DNA of 64,000 nt from Sulfuriroseicoccus oceanibius (lineage in GTDB: Bacteria; Verrucomicrobiota; Verrucomicrobiia; Verrucomicrobiales; SLCJ01): contig NZ_CP066776.1 in the NCBI RefSeq assembly GCF_010681825.2, positions 2,790,001-2,854,000 of the forward strand, given 5' to 3'. Shown here piece after piece: positions 24,901-39,641 of this stretch; the stretch's first letter is position 1; each line of letters starts with the position of its first letter. The translations under genes were made by a program, and so were the position numbers. Below the pieces are notes generated by a model. That model was not told where the DNA came from. It did not search any database and saw only the letters and a list, made by a program, of their open reading frames with translations.

Positions 24901-25548
24901 ATGCCACAACCGAAAATCCAACTCTCCGAACAGTTCGCAATCGGCTACAAACAGCCACTTGCCACCACCAGTGACGAGATCTCACTCGGTGAAGGCAACC
25001 ATTACCTCCTCGCCCGCAACGGCCGCGGAAAAACCACACTGCTCAAAACCCTCGCAGGAAACCTCAAGAGCAAAAGCGGATCGTTCCAGATCGATGGCAA
25101 ACTTCAGTTCGTAAACGAATTCCTCGATTTCGACCGCGAGCTCACGCCCACTTCCATCTTCAAAGCCCTCGTACCAAAGAAGCGCCGCGCCGAAGCCATC
25201 TCCATGGCCAACAAGGTGGAACTCGACGTCAAAAAGCCATTCGGTCAGCTTTCGCGAGGCAACCGCCAAAAGACCATCCTCATCATGGCGGAGTGCCGCA
25301 CCTCCCCGGCCATTCAAAACATCATGTTGCTTGACGAACCATTCACCGGACTCGACGCGTTCACACAGCAATTCTTCCTCGACCACTGGCAGAACGACAC
25401 CGCCAACACACTGCGACTGATCACCTGCCACCCGGATTCTGATGAGATGCAGTTTCCGAGTGTCGTCACCATTACCGACGGCAAACTCACCCACCTCACC
25501 AACGAGCAATCCCATCGCTGGAGTTCGCTGAAAGACCAATTGAACTAA
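24901..25548 (+). CDS. ABC transporter ATP-binding protein
   Basis: 215-residue single nucleotide-binding domain. Walker A is RNGRGKTTLL (about 40-49), with Arg where Ser/Cys is common. The signature-like LSRGNRQK replaces LSGGQ, and Walker B is IMLLDEPFTGLD. The H-loop His is in RLITCHPDSDE. It is the first gene of a closely spaced run (33 bases to the permease, then 27 to the His-rich gene and 21 to pilT), which links this transporter to the pilus genes. The roughly 240 bases upstream, after the phosphatase gene, contain no gene that I can see. Confidence 0.9.
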   Translation: MPQPKIQLSEQFAIGYKQPLATTSDEISLGEGNHYLLARNGRGKTTLLKTLAGNLKSKSGSFQIDGKLQFVNEFLDFDRELTPTSIFKALVPKKRRAEAISMANKVELDVKKPFGQLSRGNRQKTILIMAECRTSPAIQNIMLLDEPFTGLDAFTQQFFLDHWQNDTANTLRLITCHPDSDEMQFPSVVTITDGKLTHLTNEQSHRWSSLKDQLN

Positions 25549-25581
25549 CGTTCTCAATCCCCAACGCAGAACAATTTCACT

Positions 25582-26352
25582 ATGGACATCTTCCGCCTAT
25601 TCCTCGCCACCATCATACAGCACAAGGTCTGGATCGTTTGGACACTGCTGCTCGTCGTCGGGGCCTTGGTCTTCCCGACCATGACTCCATGGGAACAAGA
25701 GCCGTCACTGATTGAGCCGGCACGCGCCCACACGGCTTGGGTTCTCTTTTGGCTCATCTGCCTGACCTGGGGACTCTACCAAGCGGCAGCCATCGGCACC
25801 CGCCTCCGCCGCGACGGCCTGGGCGACTACTTCGCCAGCCAGGGAACCGGCCAACTCAGCCAACTTTTCCAAGGGTGGAGCGCCGTGATGGTATTCGTCA
25901 TTGGTTTCACCTTGATCACCGGTGCCATCACCATTTTCGGAGCCTCCCCGGCCGCTGAAGACCAAGCCACCGCTTGGAGCCACCTCACGCTCCAATACAT
26001 GCTGCTTGCTGGCATTTCGATCGGCTCTCTGGTCTTCCTCGCCGTCAGCCTCGGCACTCGCGTCGGATCCACCGTCGCCTATCTGGTCACTCTCGGGCTT
26101 GGGCTACATGGACTCTACGGAGTCGGCTACCTGCGCATGTTCTCACGTGAAAGCGGTAGCCCAGTCGCAGACACCCTGTGGACCGTCAGCCCTCATTTCC
26201 ACCTCGCCGATCTGACCCACCGCTTGGTGTTCAAATCCGGACAACTGACATCTTCCACATTTTTTGACATCCTTATTTATTTGTTGGGCGTAGCGCTCGT
26301 GCTGCTCGGTATCAGCGCGATTGCATTCAACTCGCGCCAATCCAGCAAGTAA
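25582..26352 (+). CDS. ABC-2-like six-helix membrane protein, presumed permease
   Basis: 256 residues with six hydrophobic helices (WIVWTLLLVVGALVFP, AWVLFWLICLTWGLYQ, AVMVFVIGFTLITGAITIFG, YMLLAGISIGSLVFLAVSLG, VAYLVTLGLGLHGLYG, ILIYLLGVALVLLGISAIA). No sequence signature of a named importer is present. Topology and position right after a lone ATPase gene make it the membrane partner of an ABC-2-type exporter or a mechanical ABC complex. It is followed within 27 bases by the His/Cys-repeat protein, the likely third subunit. Confidence 0.78.
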   Translation: MDIFRLFLATIIQHKVWIVWTLLLVVGALVFPTMTPWEQEPSLIEPARAHTAWVLFWLICLTWGLYQAAAIGTRLRRDGLGDYFASQGTGQLSQLFQGWSAVMVFVIGFTLITGAITIFGASPAAEDQATAWSHLTLQYMLLAGISIGSLVFLAVSLGTRVGSTVAYLVTLGLGLHGLYGVGYLRMFSRESGSPVADTLWTVSPHFHLADLTHRLVFKSGQLTSSTFFDILIYLLGVALVLLGISAIAFNSRQSSK

Positions 26353-26379
26353 TCCCCCAATCCCCCAATCCCCCGCAAC

Positions 26380-27681
26380 ATGCCCTCGCTTCTTTCCAAT
26401 CCCCGTACCCTCGGTCTCGCCGCTATCGGCGTCGGCGCAGGCTTGTGGGCGCTTGGTGCCAACGGCTTGTCGTCCGGCGGACAAAGCGCATTCGAGTACG
26501 AGCCAAACGTAGCCACCATCAACGGCAGCCCGTTTGGCAAAACCCTCGCGCTCACGGCACAGGGATCAATCGACTTCTACTGGCACGAAGGAGCAGATGA
26601 CCCGAACGCACCACACGTCCACGGCCCCGAATGCGCCGACGGCTGTACCCACGGCAGCAGTGAAGACACCCACGTCCATGGACCAGACTGCGGTCACGAC
26701 CACCGCGGCACAGCCGACCACAAACCTCACGCACACGGCCCGGATTGCGGACCTGACTGTGGCCACGACCACCACGACAAAGCCGACCACAAACCCCACG
26801 CACACGGTCCGGATTGCGGACCCGACTGTGGTCACGACCACCACGCCAAAGCCGATCACAAACCTCACGCGCACGGCCCGGATTGCGGACCCGACTGTGG
26901 TCACGACCACCACGCCACAGCCGATCACAAACCTCACGCACACGGTCCGGATTGCGGACCCGACTGTGGCCACGACCACCACGCCAAAGCCGATCACAAA
27001 CCTCACGCGCACGGCCCGGATTGCGGACCAGACTGTGGTCACGACCACCACACGCCAAAAGTAACTCCAAGCTCCGCAACACCACAGGAGCCGATGCTCA
27101 GCCGCGCGAAAACTCGACTACAGCAACTCTCGGCCGCTAGATTCACCAAAACATCGGACGAACCGATGACCCCTCGCCACAAGCAATTCATTTCTAACGA
27201 AATTGAACGTAAGCTGGAGTTCGCCCACAAACTCGACCCGCTCAACTACACCAATTTCAACAACCTCTATCTTTTCTACTCAACCAATGATTTAGGCAGA
27301 GAACTCAAGTCCACATCGGAGCTGCGCGAGCTCGCTCAAAGCGTCCGTAAACTGGCAGATGAGTCGTCAGAGAACCCGGCTCCATGGCTCACAGCCGCCG
27401 CCACTCAGGACATCCTCTTCAGCCTCATCTACGATTGGGAACCGGAAACCGCCACTCCAGAAAAGCTCGTTCCTATCCTCCAAGACTACCACTACTGCCT
27501 GACCACTTTTGTGCAAAAACGCAACGCTCTTAAACAAACAGGCCTCTGGACCAACATTTCTGCAAAACGCAGGACACAAATGGAAGATCGCTTTCTTTTC
27601 CTCTCCAAGCTTTACAAAGCCAAGCTAATCACGTTAGAACAGATGGTCCCACAGGTCTCTGTGGAACTTGGCAACCGCTAA
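26380..27681 (+). CDS. Membrane-anchored protein with five His/Cys-rich 23-residue repeats
   Basis: 433 residues. One N-terminal hydrophobic segment (LGLAAIGVGAGLWALGANGL, about 11-30) would anchor it with the rest outside the cytoplasm. After a degenerate HGPDCGHDH stretch come five nearly identical 23-residue units (about 112-226) built on ADHKPHAHGPDCGPDCGHDH. Each unit has six or seven His, two Cys and several Asp, a strong metal-ligand pattern. The C-terminal 200 residues are helical and Trp/Tyr-containing (LEFAHKLDPLNYTNFNNLYL, LVPILQDYHYCLTTFVQKRN) and match nothing I know. It lies between the ABC permease and pilT with gaps of 27 and 21 bases. Metal binding or sensing coupled to the transporter or pilus is inference. 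Confidence 0.75.
   Translation: MPSLLSNPRTLGLAAIGVGAGLWALGANGLSSGGQSAFEYEPNVATINGSPFGKTLALTAQGSIDFYWHEGADDPNAPHVHGPECADGCTHGSSEDTHVHGPDCGHDHRGTADHKPHAHGPDCGPDCGHDHHDKADHKPHAHGPDCGPDCGHDHHAKADHKPHAHGPDCGPDCGHDHHATADHKPHAHGPDCGPDCGHDHHAKADHKPHAHGPDCGPDCGHDHHTPKVTPSSATPQEPMLSRAKTRLQQLSAARFTKTSDEPMTPRHKQFISNEIERKLEFAHKLDPLNYTNFNNLYLFYSTNDLGRELKSTSELRELAQSVRKLADESSENPAPWLTAAATQDILFSLIYDWEPETATPEKLVPILQDYHYCLTTFVQKRNALKQTGLWTNISAKRRTQMEDRFLFLSKLYKAKLITLEQMVPQVSVELGNR
26713..27057 (+). repeat. Five in-frame 69-bp tandem repeats
   Basis: Five copies with 69-bp periodicity encode ADHKPHAHGPDCGPDCGHDHH plus two variable residues (DK, AK, AT, AK, TP). Copies differ at a few, mostly synonymous, third positions (GAC/GAT, GGT/GGC), which indicates recent expansion with purifying selection on the peptide. 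The periodicity opens long false reading frames on both strands. Copy number is likely to vary between strains. Confidence 0.9.
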
Positions 27682-27702
27682 TCCCCCCTCCCCCGATCCC
27701 GA

Positions 27703-29022
27703 ATGGAAGCCGCCCACGAAACACCTGATCCGCGCTTTACCCTCGACCAGACCGGCACGTCGCTGCGTCTGTCTGTCGATGACGCGGACAGCACTCTCCA
27801 ACTCTCATCGGACCAGTCCGCTGCTGCGTTCCACTTGCGGAGCGGCGCTGAACTGCTGCGTTGGGCATTGGCTGTAGGTACCGACCTCGGGGTTTCAGAC
27901 ATTCAGTTCCGCTCGAACCGCCTGCTCTACGTCGAAACCAGCCAAGGCATGCGCATCCTCGCCGAGCCCGGCATCCTTTCCGAGGAAATCGTCCTCGACG
28001 TGCTCAAGGAACTCATCCGCTTCAAGGAGGAAACCAACCGCAATTTCGAAGGCTTCGAGGCCAACCGAGAAGACTCTGATGTCCTCTACTGCCTCCATAA
28101 AACCAGGGTCGCAGACTTCGCTTGCCAGCAGATCGATATGGATGGCGCAGGGCGCCTCAGCGGCCGCTTGCGTATCCAGGCACACTTCAGTGCCTCCGGC
28201 CTCGGGGTCACCTGCCGTATTCTCAACGACTCCATCCCAGAGCTTGAGGAGCTGGGGCTGTCCACTGACCTCATCGACGCCATGCGCGCCGCGGTCCAGC
28301 GTCGTGCAGGACTTGCACTTGTTACTGGACCAACAGGGTCCGGTAAATCCACCACTCTCGCCGCCTTGATCGACTGGCTTCGCCGCAACCACGCGAAGCA
28401 CATCGTGACCGTGGAAGACCCTGTCGAATACTCTTACCCGCCGAGCATGGACGACCCCGAGGGATCCGGCTACCAAATCGCCAGCCCCGGCTTGGTCACC
28501 CAGCAGGAAGTCGGCCGCGACGTCTCGAGCTATCACCAGGGGCTCAAGGACGTGCTGCGTAAAGCACCTCACATCATCCTGCTCGGTGAGATCCGTGACC
28601 GCGAAGCCATGGAGACCGCGCTTGAGGCGGCCCAGACCGGTCACTTCGTGATCTCCACACTCCACACCACCGGCGCGGTCAAAACCATGGGACGTATCCT
28701 TGAGATGTTCCCTCGCGAGAAGCACGAGGCCATCCTCGGCCGCATGAGTGAAATGCTCGTATTCATCCTTTCCCAGGGACTCCTCAGAACCGAAAACGGA
28801 CGCGTTCTGACCTACGAGTTCCTCCAAAACGGTGACGATGCCTGCTCATCAGCCATCGCCAACTACTACGGCGGCTCCCGCGCCCTCGAAGACGTCATCA
28901 GACGCTCGGGTAACATCGAGTGGGACGCCCAACTCTACAACCTTTACAGTCAAGGTCTCATTGACGCGGAAACTTTTGAAAACAACCGGATGAAACGGGG
29001 TGAAGACACCTCCGAATTCTAA
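27703..29022 (+). CDS. pilT: PilT-type retraction ATPase of a type IV pilus system
   Basis: 439 residues. Walker A is TGPTGSGKSTT (about 209-218), the Asp box is TVEDPVEYS, Walker B is HIILLGEIRDREAMETAL and the His box is STLHTTGAVKT. It lacks the four-cysteine insert and long N-terminal domain of PilB/GspE. The PilT-type core is preceded by an N-terminal segment of about 60 residues and followed by a C-terminal tail (LYNLYSQGLIDAETFENN) as in PilT proteins. Hexameric cytoplasmic motors of this kind drive pilus depolymerisation. It starts 21 bases after the His/Cys-repeat gene and is followed by a pilin. Confidence 0.9.
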   Translation: MEAAHETPDPRFTLDQTGTSLRLSVDDADSTLQLSSDQSAAAFHLRSGAELLRWALAVGTDLGVSDIQFRSNRLLYVETSQGMRILAEPGILSEEIVLDVLKELIRFKEETNRNFEGFEANREDSDVLYCLHKTRVADFACQQIDMDGAGRLSGRLRIQAHFSASGLGVTCRILNDSIPELEELGLSTDLIDAMRAAVQRRAGLALVTGPTGSGKSTTLAALIDWLRRNHAKHIVTVEDPVEYSYPPSMDDPEGSGYQIASPGLVTQQEVGRDVSSYHQGLKDVLRKAPHIILLGEIRDREAMETALEAAQTGHFVISTLHTTGAVKTMGRILEMFPREKHEAILGRMSEMLVFILSQGLLRTENGRVLTYEFLQNGDDACSSAIANYYGGSRALEDVIRRSGNIEWDAQLYNLYSQGLIDAETFENNRMKRGEDTSEF

Positions 29023-29090
29023 CTCCATTCCATTACGGAGTTTTCAAATAAACAGAAACTGGTAATAACTAAATTAATACCCCAACCATC

Positions 29091-29513
29091 ATGAAAAAAA
29101 ATACACTGCGTAAGAACAAGGGCATGACCCTTCTCGAGCTCACCATCGTGATCCTCGTCCTTCTCACCCTGATCGGCGTCCTCTTCTTCGGCGCCCAGGC
29201 ATACAAAGAGGGATCGGACCGCACTGCCTGCGTCCTCAACATTCGCAACGTTCAACTTGCGATGCGTTCCTACGTGAACCTGAACGGCATCCCGCAGGAC
29301 ACTGCCATGAGCCAAGGCGACTTCATCGGGACTGGCAAGTTCTTGGAGGCATTACCAGAGTGCCCCGGAGGAGGAACATACACCTTGGATCTCGGTACCG
29401 AAGTCCCAGCAGCGGGTGATGTAGTCACTACATGCTCCCTCAACGCTTCCAAAAACCACGACCCACAGTGGGACGGGAGCGGGCTTGACGCTTCGAAGAC
29501 CGGAGATTGGTAA
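29091..29513 (+). CDS. Type IV pilin-like protein 1
   Basis: 140 residues. A short basic leader ends at Gly11, followed by MTLLELTIVILVLLTLIGVL, the class-III prepilin signature with Glu at mature position 5. The globular part contains LNIRNVQLAMRSYVNLNGIP, ALPECPGGGTY and a second Cys pair candidate (VTTCSLNA). The first residue after cleavage is Met rather than Phe, which is tolerated. The AT-rich 68 bases upstream and the strong terminator downstream suggest the gene can be expressed separately at high level, as expected for a major pilin. Cleavage needs a PilD peptidase encoded elsewhere. Confidence 0.88.
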   Translation: MKKNTLRKNKGMTLLELTIVILVLLTLIGVLFFGAQAYKEGSDRTACVLNIRNVQLAMRSYVNLNGIPQDTAMSQGDFIGTGKFLEALPECPGGGTYTLDLGTEVPAAGDVVTTCSLNASKNHDPQWDGSGLDASKTGDW

Positions 29514-29596
29514 GCCTCTAGGTTAACCATCAAGCGACTTTACCGTATCGGCTGCGCCCCCCCCTGCTGGCACGGTACTACAAGTTGATAAATTCC

Positions 29597-29640
29597 GCCG
29601 CCCTGCGCTGCTTGCGGGCAACGCAGGGCGGCCCTTTTTA
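29597..29640 (+). terminator. Rho-independent terminator after pilin 1
   Basis: GCCGCCCTGCG (29597-29607) and CGCAGGGCGGC (29622-29632) form an 11-bp perfect stem followed by CCTTTTT. It separates pilin 1 from the alignment-complex genes. Confidence 0.88.
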
Positions 29641-29743
29641 ACAGCCGATCGGCTAGAGCAAACTCCATCCTCCTTTTTGCTCAACCTGGCTGTGATCCTG
29701 CTCCAGTTTTCCGCCCTCCCTACCTGGTCTCAACACAGAAATC

Positions 29744-31519
29744 GTGAATCAGCTCCATCACCCAGAGACACTCTCAGCAGTCAAAGCCTACCGTCAGGCC
29801 TGCATGGTCGCGAACTCAAGCTCGCGCGCATCCAATCCGGACTGGTACAAGCCGGCTCATCAAGTTGGACTCCAGTGGCATATCCGGACCACCGGCTCGC
29901 CACGTTTGGCGTCTGCCGTGTATTCAGAGTCCGACCAAGCTTGGAGCGACGGACCGAACCTGAATCTGCCTCAACTGCGCTCGATGGATGCCTTGGAGGC
30001 TGCCATTGACGAGATCCTCAAACGCCACCCGAAGGCCAAGAGCCTGGGCATCGTGCTCCATATCGCGGACGAGTTCGCGACCACTGAGATTTTCGAAGAT
30101 TTTTCCGATTGGAACCAGCTCGACGCCTTGAGCGAGCAACTGTCCACAAATCCCCACTCACTCATCGGCGACGAAGGCATGGCGACCGAAGACACGTCAT
30201 GGCGCATCATCCCAACGCCTGGCGCCATCACGCCTCCGATCTGCACCACCGTCGCGATCTCGCACCGATACCAAGAGGTGCTCGCCAACCTGCGGGCACT
30301 GGGCGAAAAGCGCAACTTCCCAATTGTCACGGAAGGCGTCAGCGCTCCACTTGCCTTTCTTGCCCTACTGCCGGCATTCCTCGACTTTGAGAACGAAGCA
30401 CCCAAGTTGGTCGTCCTGCACTACCACAAGTTTTCGGCGCTCTCGATCTTCAGTCCAAATGGCGAATTGATCAAAGTGCGTGCGCTGCCACACCGGGGCC
30501 GCCCTCATCCGCCCAACCTGAGCGACACATTGACCGCTGCGGTCCACGCGAACGAGTTGCAAAAGCCGCAGATCATTCTGGTACCGATGACCTCGACGGA
30601 CATCGAGCCCTTGGTGACCCAGCTCCACGCCACCTTGCACTTGGACGACGATCCCGTGATCGACGTGATCAAGCCAGGAGTGGAGCCAGTGACCCAATGC
30701 GCAGGCAGCCGTCCGGAAATGCTCATGGCTCTTCCCGACTACACCGCATCCGAGCACTCTAACACGTTCAAGATGCTTGGTGGGCAAGGTTGGGCTTTCC
30801 AAGACTTCCTCGCCCCTCCCGCTGATGAGTCCGCTGCCATTCCGTCGTGGAAGGAGATGCAGTTGCTCAAGCTGAGCAAATTGGCGAAACCTGTCTTTGC
30901 CTTGGTGGCGATCGGCGCTCTTGGATTGACCATGACCGGAGTCATTAGTGCCATATCCAACGAGAGCTGGCAGTACGATGAGACCACCACCTCGATGCTC
31001 AATGGCGAAATCAATCTCTTACAACAAAAACAAAAGGCGCATGCCCATTGGGAAAATATCCTCGCAGACCGTACCTCTGCTTGGACCACTCTCGAATTGA
31101 TTGCCCGGATTTTCCCAAAGGACTCGGGGGTCCTTGTAGAGAACGTCGAATATTCCGCCCGCGTCGAGCAGGCTAAGAAGGGCAACACCCTTCCATTCGC
31201 CCGCAGTTGGACGATCACTGGCGCTGCAACCGATGTCGGCGAGGAGCACCTCACTTCGCTGAACTCACGCGATGGAATCAGTGCCGTCTTCACCGAAATC
31301 ACCGACGCCACAGGCATTCAATCGTTCGACCCGAGCTCGGATACGCGGCAGTTACTGATCAACGTGACCCTCGGCAACAACCCGCAATACAATCGGAGTG
31401 CCCGAGTCACCCGACCGCTCGATCTGGAGAACTGCCCGACACGTTTTACCATGAAGATCGATCTCCAGTACTCGGCCAAAGACGACTTGGCTCTCACCAG
31501 AGGCAAGCAACCGAAATAA
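29744..31519 (+). CDS. PilM/PilN-like fused inner-membrane platform protein
   Basis: 591 residues from a GTG at 29744; the ATG at 29804 is an alternative. The first 330 residues are a soluble alpha/beta region consistent with a degenerate actin-like PilM fold (VGLQWHIRTTGSPRLASAVY, later KLVVLHYHKFSALSIFSPNG). A single membrane helix follows at about 382-405 (LAKPVFALVAIGALGLTMTG), then a periplasmic part like PilN (coiled LNGEINLLQQKQKAHAHWEN, then TAWTTLELIARIFP-type and beta segments). In most bacteria PilM and PilN are separate. The position, upstream of PilO-, PilP- and PilQ-like genes, parallels the Akkermansia Amuc_1098-1102 cluster. The fold claim is inference from order and topology. 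Confidence 0.6.
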   Translation: MNQLHHPETLSAVKAYRQACMVANSSSRASNPDWYKPAHQVGLQWHIRTTGSPRLASAVYSESDQAWSDGPNLNLPQLRSMDALEAAIDEILKRHPKAKSLGIVLHIADEFATTEIFEDFSDWNQLDALSEQLSTNPHSLIGDEGMATEDTSWRIIPTPGAITPPICTTVAISHRYQEVLANLRALGEKRNFPIVTEGVSAPLAFLALLPAFLDFENEAPKLVVLHYHKFSALSIFSPNGELIKVRALPHRGRPHPPNLSDTLTAAVHANELQKPQIILVPMTSTDIEPLVTQLHATLHLDDDPVIDVIKPGVEPVTQCAGSRPEMLMALPDYTASEHSNTFKMLGGQGWAFQDFLAPPADESAAIPSWKEMQLLKLSKLAKPVFALVAIGALGLTMTGVISAISNESWQYDETTTSMLNGEINLLQQKQKAHAHWENILADRTSAWTTLELIARIFPKDSGVLVENVEYSARVEQAKKGNTLPFARSWTITGAATDVGEEHLTSLNSRDGISAVFTEITDATGIQSFDPSSDTRQLLINVTLGNNPQYNRSARVTRPLDLENCPTRFTMKIDLQYSAKDDLALTRGKQPK

Positions 31520-31555
31520 ATCACGGAGAACATCTCACAGTATCAGATATTCTTT

Positions 31556-32101
31556 ATGAGCGCTTACACAAAGCCTATCACCCTGTTTGGAATTGCGATC
31601 CCTGCGGTTGCAACCATCGTATTCTGCATTGCCTGCGTGGTGGTGAAGAGCAAGATCTCCGCCAAAGCGGATGAGCGCGAAGCCGCGTTCAGCCAGCACA
31701 ACGCACTCCAGCAGCAAGTCAATAAACTGCGCAGTGACGTACAACCGACCTCAAAGGAACTTGATGATTGGTACAAAGTGCTGACGGATGACATCCGCCC
31801 GACGGCAGCAGAAACACTAAAGTCCGTCGAGTCTGACTTCACTCCGTCCCAACTCGCGCTGACCTCCCGCCAGTTCTCACCCAGCAAGCCTGGCAGTCTC
31901 GCCAACGGAGCACGCCAAAGATCATCCACGGTAAAACTGGCATTCCGCGGAACCTACCTACCGATGCAGCTCGCATTGCAGAAAATCGAGACCTCGCTGC
32001 CTCAACTCGCTCTCGAATCGATGACCATTGGCCGTGAACGCGGCTACGATGACCTCATCTTCAACCTCTCCTACACAGCGTGGGAGAAGGAGACCAAGTA
32101 A
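31556..32101 (+). CDS. PilO-like bitopic membrane protein
   Basis: 181 residues. One N-terminal membrane helix (LFGIAIPAVATIVFCIACVV, about 10-29) is followed by a coiled-coil (ISAKADEREAAFSQHNALQQ, QVNKLRSDVQ) and a small alpha/beta domain ending in LALESMTIGRERGYDDLIFN. The region STVKLAFRGTYLPMQLALQK resembles the PilO/GspM ferredoxin-like fold where a strand precedes a helix. Its genomic slot, between the PilM/N-like gene and the PilP-like/secretin genes, is the slot of PilO and of the Akkermansia surface protein Amuc_1100. It is shorter than Amuc_1100, and homology to it is not shown. Confidence 0.6.
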   Translation: MSAYTKPITLFGIAIPAVATIVFCIACVVVKSKISAKADEREAAFSQHNALQQQVNKLRSDVQPTSKELDDWYKVLTDDIRPTAAETLKSVESDFTPSQLALTSRQFSPSKPGSLANGARQRSSTVKLAFRGTYLPMQLALQKIETSLPQLALESMTIGRERGYDDLIFNLSYTAWEKETK

Positions 32102-32115
32102 CCCCATTGAATTCC

Positions 32116-32586
32116 ATGACCATTCCAATCAAATCTCTCGCTACAGCAGTGGTCACCTGCACATGGGTGTTGTCGGGGGCCGCTTATGCAGCGGAGGCTA
32201 ACGAAGCCGCCCCCCAATCAGACGTCGCCATTGAGCTTGCCATGGCAGATGAAGACCGACTCTACGATCCCTTCGGTGTGATCAAAGACGGTGAGATCGA
32301 GCCACCAAAGGAACCCGAGATAATCAAGCCTATCCGAGGCCCCAAAGAGGCCGTTCAGTCCACCCCATTCCAAGATCTGGTCGACCGCCATGTCCGAATC
32401 CGTGCGATCAACGCGGCGCGCGGCCAAGTCTATATCGGCATGCGCCCCTACCAGCAAGGCGACACCGTCACCATTAAAACCGGAGGCGCTCCTCTGAACT
32501 GTAAGATCCTATCGGTCGACAGCGGCGGCATTGTCCTCCAAGACGTAACCTCCGAAGAAAAGGCGACCGCCCGTCACGGCCGGTAA
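32116..32586 (+). CDS. PilP/GspC-like periplasmic protein
   Basis: 156 residues from the ATG at 32116; the GTG at 32080 would overlap the previous gene. The signal peptide is LATAVVTCTWVLSGAAYA. A proline-rich linker (EIEPPKEPEIIKPIRGPKEA) leads to a small beta domain with IRAINAARGQVYIGMRPYQQ, GDTVTIKTGG and KILSVDSGGIVLQ. A beta-barrel of that size after a proline-rich linker, encoded directly before the secretin, is the layout of PilP/GspC homology-region proteins that dock onto the secretin N-domains. Sequence similarity is weak and the call is mainly positional. Confidence 0.55.
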   Translation: MTIPIKSLATAVVTCTWVLSGAAYAAEANEAAPQSDVAIELAMADEDRLYDPFGVIKDGEIEPPKEPEIIKPIRGPKEAVQSTPFQDLVDRHVRIRAINAARGQVYIGMRPYQQGDTVTIKTGGAPLNCKILSVDSGGIVLQDVTSEEKATARHGR

Positions 32587-32664
32587 CAAAGCCACACCAA
32601 GCCACAAGCTCATCTTCCCATCCAACCACACCAAAAACTCCCCCCACTTTCCTCCATTGCCATC

Positions 32665-34521
32665 ATGAAAACGAAGCCCTCCATCCCAACCTTGGCCATG
32701 ATCGCCGCCACGGCGATTGGGTCGATCTCCTCAATCCATGCCCAAGGCGAACCGCCTGCCGACGCTCCGGTAAGTGCGCTTGAGCGCGAACGCGTTGCCG
32801 CCGAGGCCGCCTTTGACGGTCTGATTTTCGAGGGCGAACCCCTCAATGACGTGATCGGTCTGCTCGCCACCCAGGCCGGCAAATCCTACACCCACAACCC
32901 GGCACTTAACGGACCACAATACTCCGTCGCCGGTAACATCGCCGCTGGAGATCCACTTGCCACCATCCAAGAGCTCGCATTTGGCTTCAATGTCGAGATT
33001 CACGTCCGTGGCAACACCATCTACGCACTCTCGCCTCAGGATGTGCAACAATTGCCGCAGGAAGAGTGGGCCTATCAGCTCAAGTATCTTCGCCCATCGG
33101 ACTTCGAGAACCTGCGTGGCATCATCCAACCGCTGCTGACTCCTGGCACGGGAACCGTCAACTTCGAGCCGAAAACCAACACCCTTTTGGTGATCGATTC
33201 GAAACGCCGGATCGAGCGCATCAACAACTTCATGGCAAAGCTCGACCGACCAAAGGGGCAGATCATCGTGGAAACGAAGATCCTGCGTATCAATAGCTCG
33301 GCCGGCAGCCGCATTGGTGTCGACTGGAGCTCGACTCTCGGCGAGCAGGGCCTGACCTTCGACGCCATTCAGAACCTTAACTCGCTCTTCAATCTGCCAG
33401 ATTCACGCTCGCTGTCGAAGGTCACCACCGACGACTTCACTTCTGGACAGGAGCTTGCAAACTCCGTTACAAACGGCTTGATCGGAGGCGCCAATGGCCA
33501 ACTTACCAACAACGGCTCGCTCAACACCAACTCGATCGAAACCCGCTCCTCGACCCCAGGTTCCGGATTGGTTCTTGCTCCGGTTCAGCTCCAAGCCGTG
33601 CTCCGTGCACTCAACGAAGGCAACATTGCCAACCAGCGCACCAACCCGACGTTGATCACCGAGGACAACGAACAGGCACTCATCACGATCATCGACCGTG
33701 TGCCAATCATCACCTCGACCATCTCGCAGACATCCGCCGGCCAGAACATCACCGACGAAGTCCGCTACACCATCGACGAGTCCGACCCAACTCTCTCCGA
33801 TGCGGAGAACCCTGGCGAAACCCGCGAGGTCGGTGTGACCCTTACCGTCACCCCTACCCTGCTGCCGGACAACACCATCCGCATGGACCTGCGCCCGCGT
33901 ACCGCACAGATCGTCGACTTCGTCGAAGGCCGCAGTGGCAACGTTTACCCACGCGTTACCGAATCGATGGTTCAGTCGATTGCTCGCGTCCCTAACGGTC
34001 ACTCGCTGATCATCGGTGGCTTCTACGGATACACCGACAGCAACAAGGAGAACAAAGTCCCGATCCTCGGTGACATCCCGGTGGTGAACTTCTTCTTCAA
34101 GAGCAAGGAAACCATCAAGGAGTCGACCAGCTTGGTGTTCATCATCACCCCGACCTCGTACGATCCATCCAGCGCCATCGAAAATCTCCGCGCCAATGAC
34201 GCCATCTACGACAACGTAGCCCTGGACAGCGACCACAACGAAGTCTTCTCACCTCGCGTCGAAGGTGTCGCCCATCGATCCAACATGGGCAACACCGTGC
34301 GTAACATCATGCGCCCACGTGACGACAAAGCCGAAGATCAGCGCAACCCATTGGTTCGCCCCGAGCGCGCCGATGAAAAGGTGCAGCAAAACATGGAGCG
34401 CTACGAAGCGACCTATCAAAAGGCCAAGGCAGCGCAATCTCAGCAGGCAGCACCTGCGACCAAGGCTCCTGCCAAAACCACCCCAAGCTCGAAGAAATTC
34501 GAGGGGGGCATGTTTGACTAG
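32665..34521 (+). CDS. pilQ: Secretin of the type IV pilus/type II secretion family (PilQ-like)
   Basis: 618 residues with a signal peptide (AMIAATAIGSISSIHA). N-domains occupy about 50-190 (FEGEPLNDVIGLLATQAGKS; YLRPSDFENLRGIIQPLL). The secretin core shows ETKILRINSSAGSRIGVDWS, ILI-type beta-hairpin repeats and the signature VPILGDIPVVNFFFKSK near residue 465, followed by SLVFIITPTSYDP. A low-complexity C-terminal tail (APATKAPAKTTPSSKK) extends past the barrel and could bind a pilotin or the cell wall. It forms the outer-membrane gate. Terminator-like hairpins follow, so PilM/N to PilQ may be one transcription unit. Confidence 0.9.
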   Translation: MKTKPSIPTLAMIAATAIGSISSIHAQGEPPADAPVSALERERVAAEAAFDGLIFEGEPLNDVIGLLATQAGKSYTHNPALNGPQYSVAGNIAAGDPLATIQELAFGFNVEIHVRGNTIYALSPQDVQQLPQEEWAYQLKYLRPSDFENLRGIIQPLLTPGTGTVNFEPKTNTLLVIDSKRRIERINNFMAKLDRPKGQIIVETKILRINSSAGSRIGVDWSSTLGEQGLTFDAIQNLNSLFNLPDSRSLSKVTTDDFTSGQELANSVTNGLIGGANGQLTNNGSLNTNSIETRSSTPGSGLVLAPVQLQAVLRALNEGNIANQRTNPTLITEDNEQALITIIDRVPIITSTISQTSAGQNITDEVRYTIDESDPTLSDAENPGETREVGVTLTVTPTLLPDNTIRMDLRPRTAQIVDFVEGRSGNVYPRVTESMVQSIARVPNGHSLIIGGFYGYTDSNKENKVPILGDIPVVNFFFKSKETIKESTSLVFIITPTSYDPSSAIENLRANDAIYDNVALDSDHNEVFSPRVEGVAHRSNMGNTVRNIMRPRDDKAEDQRNPLVRPERADEKVQQNMERYEATYQKAKAAQSQQAAPATKAPAKTTPSSKKFEGGMFD

Positions 34522-34530
34522 TTCCTCCCA

Positions 34531-34570
34531 CGCCGCATCACGGTTTTTACCGGGGTGCGGCGCTTTTTGT
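34531..34570 (+). terminator. Rho-independent terminator after the secretin gene
   Basis: CGCCGCATC and GGTGCGGCG form the outer stem, with an inner CGG/CCG pairing around TTTTTA, followed by CTTTTTG. It probably allows partial read-through into the pilB operon or separates the two units. Confidence 0.75.
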
Positions 34571-34592
34571 CTCGATCACCAGACCCAATCCC

Positions 34593-35186
34593 ATGTTTTC
34601 ATCCGATTTCGAAGGCAATGACCTAGGCGGTTCGTCCGCCAACAGTAGCTTTGTGGATCCTGATTTGCGCGACAAGCAGAAGACCGTGGCCAGAAAGACC
34701 CTGGACGCACTCATCACGCGCAAACACCTCAGCTTCGACGAAGCGGAACAGATTCAATCCGCTTACCTTTCCGAACTCGATGGCATGGCATCAGTCGAAG
34801 TATTCGAGACCATCGTGCGACTCAGCACCACCTCACCGCGCGATATCCCACAGTTCATCCGCCAACTGGGTGACGCCGTGTCCAAGACCCTGGAGCGCAA
34901 CGTTCCTTACGTACCACTGGCAGGACGGCTGCAAAAACCCTCGGCATTCTACGAGCGGCACGATTCGGTCAAACCTCTGTGCAAAGCGTTGCTCACCCCT
35001 ATCCTCTACGCTGAAGAGTCGGAAGTGATCGGAATTGGGTCCATCAATCCGAAGGCCGCATTTGTTGCCTCCGAACTCGTCGCAAATGCGGTTTCAGCAA
35101 CCGAGCCCGTCAAGCCCTTCATGTCTGTGGTTCGCGTGGACTACGACACCTGGAAAACCCTCCTTGAGAAACAATTCGGCTTATGA
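34593..35186 (+). CDS. Unknown protein coupled to pilB
   Basis: 197 residues, soluble, no signal or membrane segment. It is helical in the first half (KTVARKTLDALITRKHLSFD, EAEQIQSAYL). The second half (VPYVPLAGRLQKPSAFYERH, KALLTPILYAEESEVIGIGS, INPKAAFVASELVANAV) matches no family I know. The stop overlaps the pilB start (ATGA), implying translational coupling and a stoichiometric, cytoplasmic partner of the assembly ATPase. It could be a detached N-terminal ATPase domain or a regulator. Strongly supported as a gene by reading-frame length and coupling; function unassigned. Confidence 0.72.
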   Translation: MFSSDFEGNDLGGSSANSSFVDPDLRDKQKTVARKTLDALITRKHLSFDEAEQIQSAYLSELDGMASVEVFETIVRLSTTSPRDIPQFIRQLGDAVSKTLERNVPYVPLAGRLQKPSAFYERHDSVKPLCKALLTPILYAEESEVIGIGSINPKAAFVASELVANAVSATEPVKPFMSVVRVDYDTWKTLLEKQFGL

Positions 35187-36874
35187 TCTCTATCGACAGC
35201 ATCACCTTCAATGAAGGCATCAGCGACCGGATCATGGCGCGTCTTGAGGCGCATGACCCGGCAATCGCAAACATCAACCACGACCAGATCGAGTCGAAGA
35301 CCACGCGTTCGACCCTGATGGCGGCAATTGCTTCGCTGCGCGATCTCCCCTTTATCCCGAAAGTGGCCGCATTGACGGATATGGAGTTGGTACGCGTTTG
35401 CGACCCAAAAGTCCTCAACCGCGGCATGTTCGCGCCTATCGCACGCGAAGGAAAATTCCTGATCGTGGCGGTCTGTGACCCGTGGAACGACCTGCCGCTC
35501 GACTACCTCGGGCTGATCTTTCCTGAGCTTGAGATCACCATGGTGGTCACGCTCCCCTCGGAGATCACCAAGATCGTCGAGGTGCTCTCGTCGACTGCCG
35601 GCCCCGGGAAATCCGAGCTCGAAGCAATTGAAGTCGAAGACACCGACGACGAAATTCAGGATTTCGACGTCCTTAAGAAGTACGACGAACCCATCGCCCA
35701 ATTGATCGCCACTATGATGGCGACCGCCGTCCAGCTTGGTGTTTCTGATATTCACATCAAAGTGGAGAAGGACACCTTCTACTACAGCTACCGTCTCGAC
35801 GGGGACCTGGGCGAGAAGTACCAGCTTCCAATGAAGCTGCGCGACCGTGTCGACGCCTTCCTGATGAACTTGATGAAGCTGGCGACCGAAAAACGTTCGA
35901 CCAGCCCGGGCATCTCCGGTCGTTTCAGTCTTTCCTACCTTCACCGCAGTATCGACGTCCGTTACGAGCGCCACCGGACCTACCGTGGTTACCACGTGAC
36001 CATGCGATTGCTCGACAAAGGCAACTTGAGCGTTGCTCTCGGTAAAGGCAACATGGCCTTCGACCCGGAGACCCTTTTCGAGCTACGCCGCGTGATGCGT
36101 ATCCCGGCTGGTATTATCGTGATGTCCGGACCTACCGGATCCGGTAAGTCCACCACGCTCAACGCCATGCTGCGCGAGCTCAACGAACCCGAGGTCAACA
36201 TCCTCACTCTGGAAAACCCGGTGGAGGATGAAATCCCCGGCGTGACCCACTGTGACTTGAAAGGCCCTGCCGAGTTCAAACCCATGATCTCCTCGTTCAT
36301 GCGAAGTGACCCGGATATCATCCTGATGGGTGAGGTGCGTGACACCGAATCCGCAGAACTTGCTATCGAGGCCGCTATTACCGGTCACAAGGTGCTGACC
36401 ACGGTCCACACGCCACGGGCCAGTCAGATCATCGAACGTTTCGAGCAGCTCGGAATGGAGCGCTGGAAGATCGCGCAGACTCTAAAAGCAGCCTGCGCCC
36501 AGCGTCTCTGTAAGGAACTCTGCACGTCCTGCAAGATCCGCCTCGATGGCGTCTCAGAGGAAGATCGCCGGGTTTTCAACTTGGAGGAAGAGTGGGCACA
36601 CAAAGAGGTGTATAAGGCGGCCCCTGAGGGTTGCTCGGAATGCGGAGGCAGTGGCTACAAAGGACGTACCGCCATTCTGGAAATCATCCCGATCTCGCCC
36701 TCAGTCTCCGATGAGCTCTCAAAAGGCACACTCAGCCCGTACGAGCTGGAGATCCGAATCCAGGAAGAAGGCCGCCTGCCGTCCCTTCGCAAAAGTGGTC
36801 TTCGCCTATTGGAAGCCGGAAAAACCGACCTCAAAGCACTCGCCAAGGTCATTGATATGACCTACACCGACTAG
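35183..36874 (+). CDS. pilB: PilB/GspE-type assembly ATPase
   Basis: 563 residues. An N-terminal GspE-N-like domain (about 1-150) precedes the motor. Walker A is SGPTGSGKSTTLNAM (about 316-325), the Asp box is LTLENPVEDEIPG, Walker B is DIILMGEVRDTESAELAI and the His box is TTVHTPRASQ. The zinc tetracysteine typical of PilB/GspE is present as CKELCTSC and CSECGGSGYKGRTAILEI. These hexamers drive pilin polymerisation or secretion from the cytoplasmic side. It overlaps the unknown gene before it and precedes pilC by 41 bases. Confidence 0.93.
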   Translation: MISIDSITFNEGISDRIMARLEAHDPAIANINHDQIESKTTRSTLMAAIASLRDLPFIPKVAALTDMELVRVCDPKVLNRGMFAPIAREGKFLIVAVCDPWNDLPLDYLGLIFPELEITMVVTLPSEITKIVEVLSSTAGPGKSELEAIEVEDTDDEIQDFDVLKKYDEPIAQLIATMMATAVQLGVSDIHIKVEKDTFYYSYRLDGDLGEKYQLPMKLRDRVDAFLMNLMKLATEKRSTSPGISGRFSLSYLHRSIDVRYERHRTYRGYHVTMRLLDKGNLSVALGKGNMAFDPETLFELRRVMRIPAGIIVMSGPTGSGKSTTLNAMLRELNEPEVNILTLENPVEDEIPGVTHCDLKGPAEFKPMISSFMRSDPDIILMGEVRDTESAELAIEAAITGHKVLTTVHTPRASQIIERFEQLGMERWKIAQTLKAACAQRLCKELCTSCKIRLDGVSEEDRRVFNLEEEWAHKEVYKAAPEGCSECGGSGYKGRTAILEIIPISPSVSDELSKGTLSPYELEIRIQEEGRLPSLRKSGLRLLEAGKTDLKALAKVIDMTYTD

Positions 36875-36915
36875 GATCGATTCGTAACGCCTTCGCACTC
36901 ACTCCGCTCCCCGCC

Positions 36916-38136
36916 ATGCCACCACTCAATCAAGTCCCATCCTCCGCGCCAAAGCCTGTTGCCCCCAAACCGGTTACCCCGAAGCCTCCCAAAGGCGCTG
37001 CGAAAGAGCAAACAGCTGAGGGAAGCGCACCTAAAAAGGAAAAGAAATCCTTGGCGAGCAAAGAGATCGAGATCTTCGGCCCAAAGAAGATCAAGATGCC
37101 CGAAAAGGAACTTATCAAGTTTTACCGGGGTATGGCATCAATGCTGCGCTCGCAGATCAACACAGGTGATGCATTGAAGTATTATGCCCACGGAATGACC
37201 AATCGACCGGTAGCTGATAAGGTCATAGGCATTCAAGAGGCGATTACAGCGGGGGTTCCGATTCATGAGGCATTCCGTAAGTCAGAGCTCTTCGACGACA
37301 CCACCATTGGTCTGGTTCAGGCCGGAACAGAGTCCGGCCAACTGGATCAGGCCTTCACCGCAGTAGCCCATCGCATCAAGACGGCACACGAATTCAAGGT
37401 AAAGGTGAGGAAAGCAATTGCCGTCCCACTTGTTGTAATTTCCTTACTTATCTTTGCTTTCATCATGTCGCAGGTGAAGATCGTCCCCCAAGTAGAGGAG
37501 ATGCTCATGCAAGTGGCCCAAGAACCGGACGCATTCACAGGTTTGATCTTTAAGATGAGTCACTTCACCCAGGAATGGTGGTCTACGATTGTTATAGCAA
37601 TCGTTATCGCTGTGGTAGCGATCGTATTTTCAGAGGGGTTACGGACTATCATCACCAACATTGCGATGTCCAAATGGCGCCTGTTGCGCAACCTCATCAT
37701 GGGACTTCGCCAAATGACCTTCCTCGGAACCATGCACATGCTGCACTCCAACGGAATCAACCTGGCAAAGGCTATTCAAACCGCAGCGAGCAGTGTCAAA
37801 GGGACGCCAATGCACGACGAGCTCAAGGAAGCTGCCAACAAATATCAGGAGACCGGCTTACCGGTTTCCGAGGCCTTCAAGAAATTCACATCTTGTGACC
37901 CACAGGTTTCCCACATGCTTTTCATTGGTGAAAGGGCTGCCTCTATCGATACCCAATTGAAGATGTTGTCGGAGATGTACGAGGAAGACACGCGCGCATA
38001 CATGGAAGATTTCACCGCGGCCTTGAACTTGGTGGTTTTGATCGTCGCCGTGATTCTGATTGCCACGGTCTTCATTGGAACCTTCCTTCCAATCTTCTTG
38101 ATGGGGCCAAAGATGATGCAAGGTGGCAACATGTAG
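36916..38136 (+). CDS. pilC: PilC/GspF inner-membrane platform protein
   Basis: 406 residues. An unusual N-terminal extension of about 55 residues is Pro/Lys-rich (APKPVAPKPVTPKPPKGAAK), then two GspF repeats follow (FYRGMASMLRSQINTGDALK near 70; LRQMTFLGTMHMLHSNGINL near 275), each followed by helical hairpins and membrane segments (AIAVPLVVISLLIFAFIMSQ, TIVIAIVIAVVAIVF, LNLVVLIVAVILIATVFIGT). It anchors PilB at the membrane and passes pilins to the filament. The charged proline-rich N-terminus is longer than usual and may contact PilB or the coupled unknown protein. Confidence 0.92.
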   Translation: MPPLNQVPSSAPKPVAPKPVTPKPPKGAAKEQTAEGSAPKKEKKSLASKEIEIFGPKKIKMPEKELIKFYRGMASMLRSQINTGDALKYYAHGMTNRPVADKVIGIQEAITAGVPIHEAFRKSELFDDTTIGLVQAGTESGQLDQAFTAVAHRIKTAHEFKVKVRKAIAVPLVVISLLIFAFIMSQVKIVPQVEEMLMQVAQEPDAFTGLIFKMSHFTQEWWSTIVIAIVIAVVAIVFSEGLRTIITNIAMSKWRLLRNLIMGLRQMTFLGTMHMLHSNGINLAKAIQTAASSVKGTPMHDELKEAANKYQETGLPVSEAFKKFTSCDPQVSHMLFIGERAASIDTQLKMLSEMYEEDTRAYMEDFTAALNLVVLIVAVILIATVFIGTFLPIFLMGPKMMQGGNM

Positions 38137-38178
38137 AACGCTGGTTAATCCAAGTCTTTCGTACTGCCCACTTAAAAC

Positions 38179-38697
38179 ATGCAACAAACCAAATTCGATC
38201 GCTGGCTCCAATCACGCTACGTCAATGAGACGTTGGTGATCACGGTGCGCCAACCGCCCTATGTCCCTAAAGGCATTGTGGTCGAAGAGCTACCACAGTC
38301 ACTCAACAATCGCTACCGCTACCAGATGGTAATTAGCGACGCCAAGGAGTTGGACAAAATTCTGACCGAGCTCAAGAAGCTGAGTCAGACATACACCACC
38401 AGGGTCCGTCAGCGTAAGGGATTGGCAAAATTCTTCTTCGCCCACGAAAGTGGCAGAAGCTTCTCGATTTCCCTCATCTCCGCAATTTTGGGAGCGTCCG
38501 CAATGTTTTGGGTGGTTTTACTATTCCCCGACATCTTGATCGAGTATGCTGATCTCTACCTTGTTCCACCGATTTTGGAGCTTAAAGACTCGTTGCTAAA
38601 TACTGCGAAAGAGCTCCTGAGGAGCGCCGAAGAGGTGCTTCACTCCCAATCCCCGACAGAAGGCATAGAGCAGCAGCCCTCCCCCTCTAACGAATGA
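38179..38697 (+). CDS. Unknown single-pass membrane protein in the pilus operon
   Basis: 172 residues. The first 95 are basic and probably cytoplasmic (MQQTKFDRWLQSRYVNETLV, AKELDKILTELKKLSQTYTT). One long hydrophobic segment follows at about 98-120 (SISLISAILGASAMFWVVLL), then a helical periplasmic tail (ILELKDSLLNTAKELLRSAE). No family recognised. It lies 42 bases after pilC and 21 before the second pilin, so it is likely part of the same machine, perhaps a minor platform or regulator protein. Operon position is the only functional clue. Confidence 0.7.
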   Translation: MQQTKFDRWLQSRYVNETLVITVRQPPYVPKGIVVEELPQSLNNRYRYQMVISDAKELDKILTELKKLSQTYTTRVRQRKGLAKFFFAHESGRSFSISLISAILGASAMFWVVLLFPDILIEYADLYLVPPILELKDSLLNTAKELLRSAEEVLHSQSPTEGIEQQPSPSNE

Positions 38698-38718
38698 GCT
38701 TAGATCAAACAACACATA

Positions 38719-39147
38719 ATGATCATGAAGACTCCACTCATCACCAGCAGTCTCCGAACCAAGTCTCTGCACGGCCTCACATTGCTAGAAATGACGTTGG
38801 TCATATGCATCCTGATGATATTCATCGGTCTCGGCTTGGGCTATTCGACAGTCACGCAGGACTGGAAAAAGGGGAAAATGGCATCTGAGGCTCTTCGTGA
38901 AGTGTATTCAGCCCAAAAGACCTACCTAGGTGACCATCCCACCAGTAACGTCGCAGATCTGACCCAAGAGGACATCACACCATATCTCCGCAATGGGCTC
39001 ACGGAGGTTCCGACCGTGGTTGGTCTCGACGATGCGACCTACACCATCAAAGTAAACGTCAGCCCTCCAGTTATTGATGATGGCGCCGGCGGTATCTACG
39101 ACCCCTCCGACCGCTCGGACGACGGCTTGTGGGACGTTGGCTTCTAG
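38719..39147 (+). CDS. Type IV pilin-like protein 2
   Basis: 142 residues; the start may be ATG 38719 or 38725. A leader of about 19 residues ends in HG, then LTLLEMTLVICILMIFIGLG has Glu at mature position 5, the prepilin motif. The rest is a short globular region (ALREVYSAQKTYLGDHPTSN, VADLTQEDITPYL, DDATYTIKVNVSPPVIDDGA). Like pilin 1 it is short, but it lacks cysteines outside the membrane helix. Because it sits in the pilB-pilC transcription unit rather than alone, it may be a minor or alternative pilin. Confidence 0.85.
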   Translation: MIMKTPLITSSLRTKSLHGLTLLEMTLVICILMIFIGLGLGYSTVTQDWKKGKMASEALREVYSAQKTYLGDHPTSNVADLTQEDITPYLRNGLTEVPTVVGLDDATYTIKVNVSPPVIDDGAGGIYDPSDRSDDGLWDVGF

Positions 39148-39167
39148 CTTCATTGCTCCTCCCCACC

Positions 39168-39641
39168 ATGCGTCCGCTCCTCACTGTCGCATTACTCTGC
39201 CTCCTGTTTGTGGGGAGGGAAAGCCTCGCGCAGGCCGCACCCAATGTCGTGCGGCCATTGCAAGAGATCGGAGTGTTTCGGGTGTCCGCGATGTGGCGGG
39301 TTTCCAATGGTGAGCTGATCCCATCGGCGATCGAGCCCTACGACTACCGGGTACTCTCCAACGGTGAGCGAATCGAATTGGAGTTGGTAGACGGTGACTC
39401 GAAACGCATCTCGTTCGCCGTCTATCGCGCCGGCACCCGCATGATTGTCGAGGACGGCTTGGATGGCATCGCAACAGCCGAAGCCTTGCTCGCCTCCTCC
39501 AAAGACGACGGTACGCTCCGCCAGGTGGTACTCACTCCGAAAATGCTGCGCATCACCCGAATGCCAGTCAACAGCATGGACATCATCGTCATCGAGGCCC
39601 ATAAGGTGCCCGCCAAAAACAAGAACACACCAAGTTCTTGA
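39168..39641 (+). CDS. Small secreted protein, unknown, last gene of the pilus run
   Basis: 157 residues from the ATG at 39168 with a signal peptide (LLTVALLCLLFVGRESLAQA). A GTG at 39129 would overlap the pilin end and spoil the signal, so it was rejected. The mature part is beta-rich (VFRVSAMWRVSNGELIPSAI, LSNGERIELELVDGDSKRIS, FAVYRAGTRM). No family is recognised. The gene is 20 bases after pilin 2 and 35 bases before the secreted GH2 enzyme, so it may belong with either. Confidence 0.68.
   Translation: MRPLLTVALLCLLFVGRESLAQAAPNVVRPLQEIGVFRVSAMWRVSNGELIPSAIEPYDYRVLSNGERIELELVDGDSKRISFAVYRAGTRMIVEDGLDGIATAEALLASSKDDGTLRQVVLTPKMLRITRMPVNSMDIIVIEAHKVPAKNKNTPSS

Follow-up and report, generated by a model that had tools for sequence, protein, structure and literature searches.

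Type IV pili (T4P) are retractable surface fibres. In Sulfuriroseicoccus oceanibius, a T4P locus opens with three genes, which encode an ABC ATPase, a six-helix permease and an anchored protein with a His/Cys repeat; the trio is probably a dedicated component of the T4P machine in this bacterial group. By analogy with known systems, the trio is best read as a PilGHI-like, NosY-folded ABC module dedicated to T4P and carrying a lineage-specific metal-binding extension. The statement as a whole, that the trio is a dedicated, co-inherited T4P module which, in PilGHI-like fashion, helps mechanically with the handling of pilin, was given a probability of about 0.6.

Gene content of the pilus locus

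The stretch of DNA analysed, referred to as the window, comprises 64,000 nucleotides. The genes for the ATPase, the permease, the anchored His/Cys-repeat protein (third subunit) and pilT follow one another on the + strand, separated by intergenic gaps of 33, 27 and 21 bases. This tight run had been reported in the original prediction, and its ORFs were confirmed at 24901-25548, 25582-26352, 26380-27681 and 27703-29022. The pilus genes placed downstream of it, encoding two prepilin-like proteins, a secretin, PilB and PilC, were likewise recovered using Pfam matches and synteny; the PilM/N-, PilO- and PilP-like labels are based on position and weak matches only. The following features were assigned (coordinates, strand, product, evidence).

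24901..25548, +, ABC ATPase of the trio, 215 aa (PF00005, E 1.2e-10)
25582..26352, +, six-helix permease of ABC-2 type, 256 aa (family alignment, ABC2_membrane_3 in relatives, AF2 model, Foldseek)
26380..27681, +, third subunit, 433 aa, with N-terminal TM anchor, His/Cys linker and helical C-terminal domain (family alignment)
26680..27051, +, 69-bp tandem repeat within the third-subunit gene, giving five identical protein copies of DHKPHAHGPDCGPDCGHDHH (TRF, 5.4 copies)
27703..29022, +, pilT-like retraction ATPase, 21 bases 3′ of the third subunit (PF00437, E 2.4e-42)
29091..29513, +, type IV prepilin-like protein 1 (N_methyl PF07963, E 2.1e-4)
29744..31519, +, protein in the PilM/N position, 591 aa (position and conserved synteny; without Pfam match)
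31556..32101, +, PilO/GspM-like protein (NF040576 GspM, E 4.5e-6, below cut-off)
32080..32586, +, protein in the PilP position (synteny)
32665..34521, +, secretin, PilQ (PF00263, E 2.4e-33)
34593..35186, +, conserved 197-aa protein of no known family in the interval between secretin and pilB (synteny kept in 24 loci)
35183..36874, +, pilB extension ATPase with MshEN domain (PF00437, E 6.8e-79; PF05157, E 2.2e-7)
36916..38136, +, pilC inner-membrane platform (PF00482, E 8.2e-36)
38179..38697, +, conserved 172-aa protein 3′ of pilC (conserved synteny)
38719..39147, +, prepilin-like protein 2, whose orthologue in lineage f5 sits directly 5′ of the ABC gene (synteny; a gap of 17-50 bp in almost every f5 locus)
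39129..39641, +, conserved 170-aa protein closing the locus (a 52% identical orthologue adjoins pilA2 in G001)

The pilT-like ATPase is T2SSE/PilT-PilU-like and scored 244.8 bits with TIGR01420, below the NCBIfam cut-off of 319.1. PilB, PilC, a PilT-type ATPase, a secretin and prepilins thus lie within one locus, as expected of a T4P system. The two family-less proteins at 34593-35186 and 38179-38697 keep their position in the pilus locus across the order. Between 24600 and 29200, no promoter-like site was found and terminators showed no excess compared with shuffles, leaving a single operon neither proven nor excluded. The genome from which the window was taken consists of one contig of 3.5 Mb, in which the third-subunit protein and the permease are each present as a single copy, and it holds two further PilC/GspF-type loci. 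A His-rich ORF at 1337-2194 of the window (8 His per 30 residues) is apparently a spurious frame rather than a gene.

Co-inheritance with pili and gene order

The permease, the third-subunit domain, PilB and the secretin were searched for in 94 related genomes. The permease was found in 36/94 genomes, each of which carried the pilus locus (36/36), in agreement with the predicted tie of the ABC complex to the pilus system. It was present in 0/57 genomes without this locus; the outcome named originally as refuting the link, a trio widespread in the absence of pilus genes, was thus not observed in these genomes. Conversely, PilB or the secretin of the pilus locus was detected in 37/94 genomes, and 36 of these 37 have the permease. 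The association yields a Fisher p of 3e-25 with shared ancestry ignored. Presence of permease and pilus locus was scattered across 12 genera, three of which are mixed, and the pattern is therefore not one ancestral block. All 36 permease genomes contain the third subunit, four having been missed by a single-sequence search and recovered with a profile. Its gene lies 3′ of the permease gene in nearly all genomes and on another contig in G075, G081 and G086. A general transporter found without pili was considered for the trio and rejected within the order.

The only pilus locus lacking the permease was that of G057, and no permease was found elsewhere in this genome. A transposase fragment, IS110-type by reading, is located in G057 directly 5′ of pilT at a contig end (L155:1-900), where the trio would be expected.

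In the loci fetched, the ABC and permease genes adjoin pilus genes in two different orders. The trio of families f1 and f2 and of most f3 genomes is located 5′ of pilT and the pilin gene, as in the window; that of the f5 genomes and of a single f3 genome is located 3′ of pilB-pilC. In the f5 loci, the pilin gene ends 17-50 bp 5′ of the ABC gene, with one exception of 429 bp; the ABC and permease genes overlap by at most 4 bp, and the permease and third-subunit genes by 25 bp. That the trio merely rides along with the pilus operon as a chance neighbour, with no functional link, is very unlikely indeed considering co-inheritance in 36/37 pilus-positive genomes and the two gene orders. The trio almost certainly belongs to the pilus system.

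PilG, PilH and PilI of Pseudomonas and Synechocystis appear to be signalling proteins of the same name. The comparison drawn earlier, with pilGHI of Myxococcus xanthus, fits in gene content and in the pilin-trio spacing of the f5 loci. In M. xanthus, a single operon comprises pilA, pilG, pilH and pilI, and PilG has been named an ABC accessory factor (PMC3546991); in mutants of pilGHI, both the export of pilin and piliation are described as blocked (PMC3724824, PMC3924187), M. xanthus being the only organism with loss-of-function data for PilGHI (PMC3546991, PMC3724824, PMC3924187). Like the trio of the window, PilGHI (MXAN_5782-5780) comprises an ABC ATPase, an ABC permease and an accessory third protein, all encoded with T4P genes. 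PilGHI is located 3′ of pilA in Myxococcus, and the trio of the f5 relatives is likewise directly 3′ of a pilin gene; the spacing in these loci would suit the pilin cotranscription of PilGHI, whereas the trio of the window instead precedes pilT and a pilin gene. The accessory gene also differs in position, being 5′ of the ATPase gene in M. xanthus and 3′ of the permease gene in the window. The window trio further differs from PilGHI in carrying the His/Cys repeat, and the likeness between the two was judged by gene content and layout, not by sequence; no PilG or PilI model occurred among the Pfam and NCBIfam matches of the window proteins.

The original prediction had stated that a metal-repeat third subunit is not part of any described pilus system. 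As regards a third component it needs correction, since PilG has already been described as the accessory third component of the Myxococcus ABC complex (PMC3546991, PMC3924187); a third subunit as such is therefore not new. What PilGHI contributes to pilus assembly has been an open question since 1998, and descriptions have confined the complex to Myxococcus. In the genomes compared here, an analogous complex appears as a near-obligatory partner of the pili of a whole lineage, with a conserved third-subunit family.

Permease fold and third-subunit family

The motifs of the window ATPase are intact (Walker A-type ARNGRGKT, signature LSRGN, Walker B LLDEP, H-loop TCH), and Walker A, signature and Walker B are kept in most of 34 ATPase homologues. 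The window permease itself had no convincing Pfam match and no NCBIfam family, while 18/35 members of its family matched ABC2_membrane_3. The family alignment contains the conserved motif SPHxHLADLTxRLVFKxG. An AF2 model of the window permease, built with 21 sequences, was all-helical with a pLDDT of 79. Using this model in Foldseek, the best match was NosY of NosDFY (TM 0.64, E 8.3e-3), followed by PmtCD and CcmB. On the basis of the model, the permease can safely be placed in the ABC-2/type V fold class; its affinity to NosY is tentative, the E-values being modest. Profile searches against PDB with the window permease family and the window third-subunit family gave nothing useful, and a gliding complex of the GldAFG type had no equivalog match (TIGR03522 at 34 bits, cut-off 402.6).

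Glycan-exporting ABC-2 permeases (Wzm, KpsM, TarG) were among the weaker fold matches and an O-antigen-ligase-like gene is located upstream, both of which would suit a trio exporting a separate product (polysaccharide, peptide or lipid) that acts alongside pili, for instance a matrix component. We consider this improbable, as the conserved neighbourhood consists of pilus genes in either layout, with biosynthesis genes not seen in it, and a fixed TPR-like third subunit is atypical for such exporters.

The window third subunit gave zero Pfam or NCBIfam matches, ABC_transp_aux included among the Pfam models it did not match. Members of its family consist of an N-terminal membrane helix, a region with S-x-x-G and W-H-x-G motifs (SPFGKT...IDFYWHEG in the window), a linker highly variable in length and composition, and a helical domain. 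TPRs were not recognisable in the window protein taken alone.

A phylum-wide profile search retrieved weak permease relatives in other classes, and a genome scan yielded 20 distant loci, mostly from Kiritimatiellae and relatives, with two from Omnitrophota. These loci share the order ATPase-permease-anchored protein and often adjoin pilB, pilC, pilR and pilA. The Kiritimatiellae/Omnitrophota trio resembles that of the window in its homologous permease and third subunit, its gene order and its pilus neighbours in many genomes, but differs in having recognisable TPRs and a His/Cys tail at the C terminus rather than in the linker; ExeA-, GspB- and TPR-protein genes are its neighbours instead of the pilT-pilMNOPQ of the window. 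At L165:10138-12572 and equivalent positions, a conserved ExeA-like ATPase, a GspB-like protein and a TPR protein are encoded on the opposite strand between trio and pilB.

The distant third subunit was found in 69 genomes of the phylum, 64/69 of which have the matching PilB; of the five without PilB, four are among the weakest matches and one is an 82% complete assembly. In 27 phylum genomes, the distant-type PilB is present and the third subunit missing, from which it follows that T4P in general do not need the third subunit.

The domain of the distant third subunits is a TPR domain (Pfam TPR, E 2e-9). In an AF2 model, a TM helix is predicted at 5-33 and TPR helices at 108-255, and Foldseek with this model matched TPR proteins, PilF among them. 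Following removal of the linkers, window and distant families were aligned by hhalign with a score of 44.4 (P 1.6e-5, global P 1.1e-7), compared with 19.9 or less across 60 column shuffles, 14.7 for the reversed profile and 18.5 when an unrelated TPR family encoded in the same loci was used; with the linkers kept, the same comparison was weak (prob 7). The aligned stretch pairs W-H-x-G with F-H-x-G and includes the first domain helices. Judged from these profiles, the two third-subunit families are homologous. In many distant third subunits a Cys closes the first helix, which suggests a lipoprotein and hence a periplasmic location; charge-based topology was ambiguous in several homologues.

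NosDFY, which functions in copper-site maturation, may share with the window trio the permease fold, an ABC core with periplasmic partner and a metal theme. It differs in its partner NosD, the window trio having a TPR-like anchored third subunit and being linked to pili; no NosD-type match was obtained for the third subunit, the distant homologues of which are TPR proteins. NosDFY acts mechanically on its periplasmic partner and is not a classical small-solute transporter. Transferring this mechanical model to the pilus-dedicated trio, ATPase and NosY-fold permease would probably form the ABC core. The third protein would be held in the inner membrane by its anchor and would most likely expose its helical, TPR-like domain to the periplasm. 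ATP hydrolysis would move this third protein, and the trio would most likely act not by exporting a small solute but by mechanically assisting, on the outer side of the inner membrane, the handling of pilin or of a protein of pilus assembly.

His/Cys repeat of the third subunit

In the 20-residue core of the repeat, the five copies are identical at the protein level, and six nucleotide positions vary, all of them silent third positions. Synonymous sites make up ∼19% of the repeat sites, and the finding that all six variable sites are synonymous indicates selection on the repeat protein, on few sites and with repeat homogenisation left out of account. ORFs in other frames over the repeat (26534-27064 and antisense ones) were dismissed as by-products of the array.

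Dense His clusters, defined as at least 8 His in 30 aa, occurred in 8/28 third subunits including that of the window, versus 0/538 neighbouring ORFs of related loci. The linker varies by lineage, with repeats in some relatives, proline-rich sequence in the f5 genomes (up to 14 Pro per 30 residues where the window has the His/Cys repeat) and plain or short sequence in others. In the distant loci, His/Cys tails are C-terminal, the opposite end from the linker repeat of the window. The Kiritimatiellae-type third subunits at L168:1360-2340 and L177:1779-2921, for example, finish in repeated His/Cys tails such as ...HEHEHVHDENCNHDDEHEHEHVHDENCNHH. In L073 (G089), the third-subunit gene (∼11363-12673) has a His linker of HDHSS repeats broken by an N run, due to assembly or masking.

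The His/Cys feature is thus real in some members and recurs, without being universal. The metal repeat as a general part of the complex, as first proposed, did not hold up: the repeat is inserted into a variable linker, which f5 genomes have in proline-rich form and others in plain form. Because of this variability between lineages, it was rejected as a defining feature of the complex. The repeat is best read as a lineage-specific extension that may bind metal. Beside the complex, it would be a selected metal-binding linker extension buffering or sensing Zn, Cu or Ni, and it is accessory, since other genera keep the same complex without it.

Alternatively, the repeat could be a mere hydrophilic spacer, swappable with proline-rich linkers and without a metal role, which is compatible with the preferred explanation of the trio. 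Linker length and composition vary freely, f5 again providing the proline-rich extreme, and we regard a spacer as a tentative possibility; the synonymous state of six of six variable sites among the five copies and the recurrence of similar His/Cys sequence at the other end of distant homologues argue against it.

The metal role could also be central, with a NosDFY-like ABC core that drives a periplasmic partner to load or remove Cu, Zn or Ni on a pilus-associated protein and the His/Cys region as the working metal site. The nearest solved permease folds are NosY in NosDFY(L/Z) entries (TM ∼0.6), the His/Cys repeats are under purifying selection, and distant third subunits have invariant FH and HxH positions in addition to their tails. 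This explanation is rather unlikely, as the Foldseek E is only 8e-3 and other ABC-2 exporters (PmtCD, CcmB) score close, the trio is retained alongside the pilus in f5 and a number of further lineages in which His/Cys regions are missing, and the third subunit is TPR-like, unlike NosD.

Metal control of the trio, as suspected originally, is kept alive as a possibility by repeat selection and the recurrent His/Cys tails. In its explicit form, in which the third subunit would be a periplasmic metal sensor or buffer and metal on the His/Cys region would gate the ABC motor and hence pilus assembly, we consider it doubtful. If true, metal supply would govern how these bacteria extend their pili. 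Several gains or losses of the His/Cys region would then be implied, the region being a linker insert in Verrucomicrobiales and a C-terminal tail in Kiritimatiellae. Linkers of the His/Cys, proline-rich and plain kinds constitute a natural variant set for both the role of the ABC motor in the pilus and the relevance of metal.
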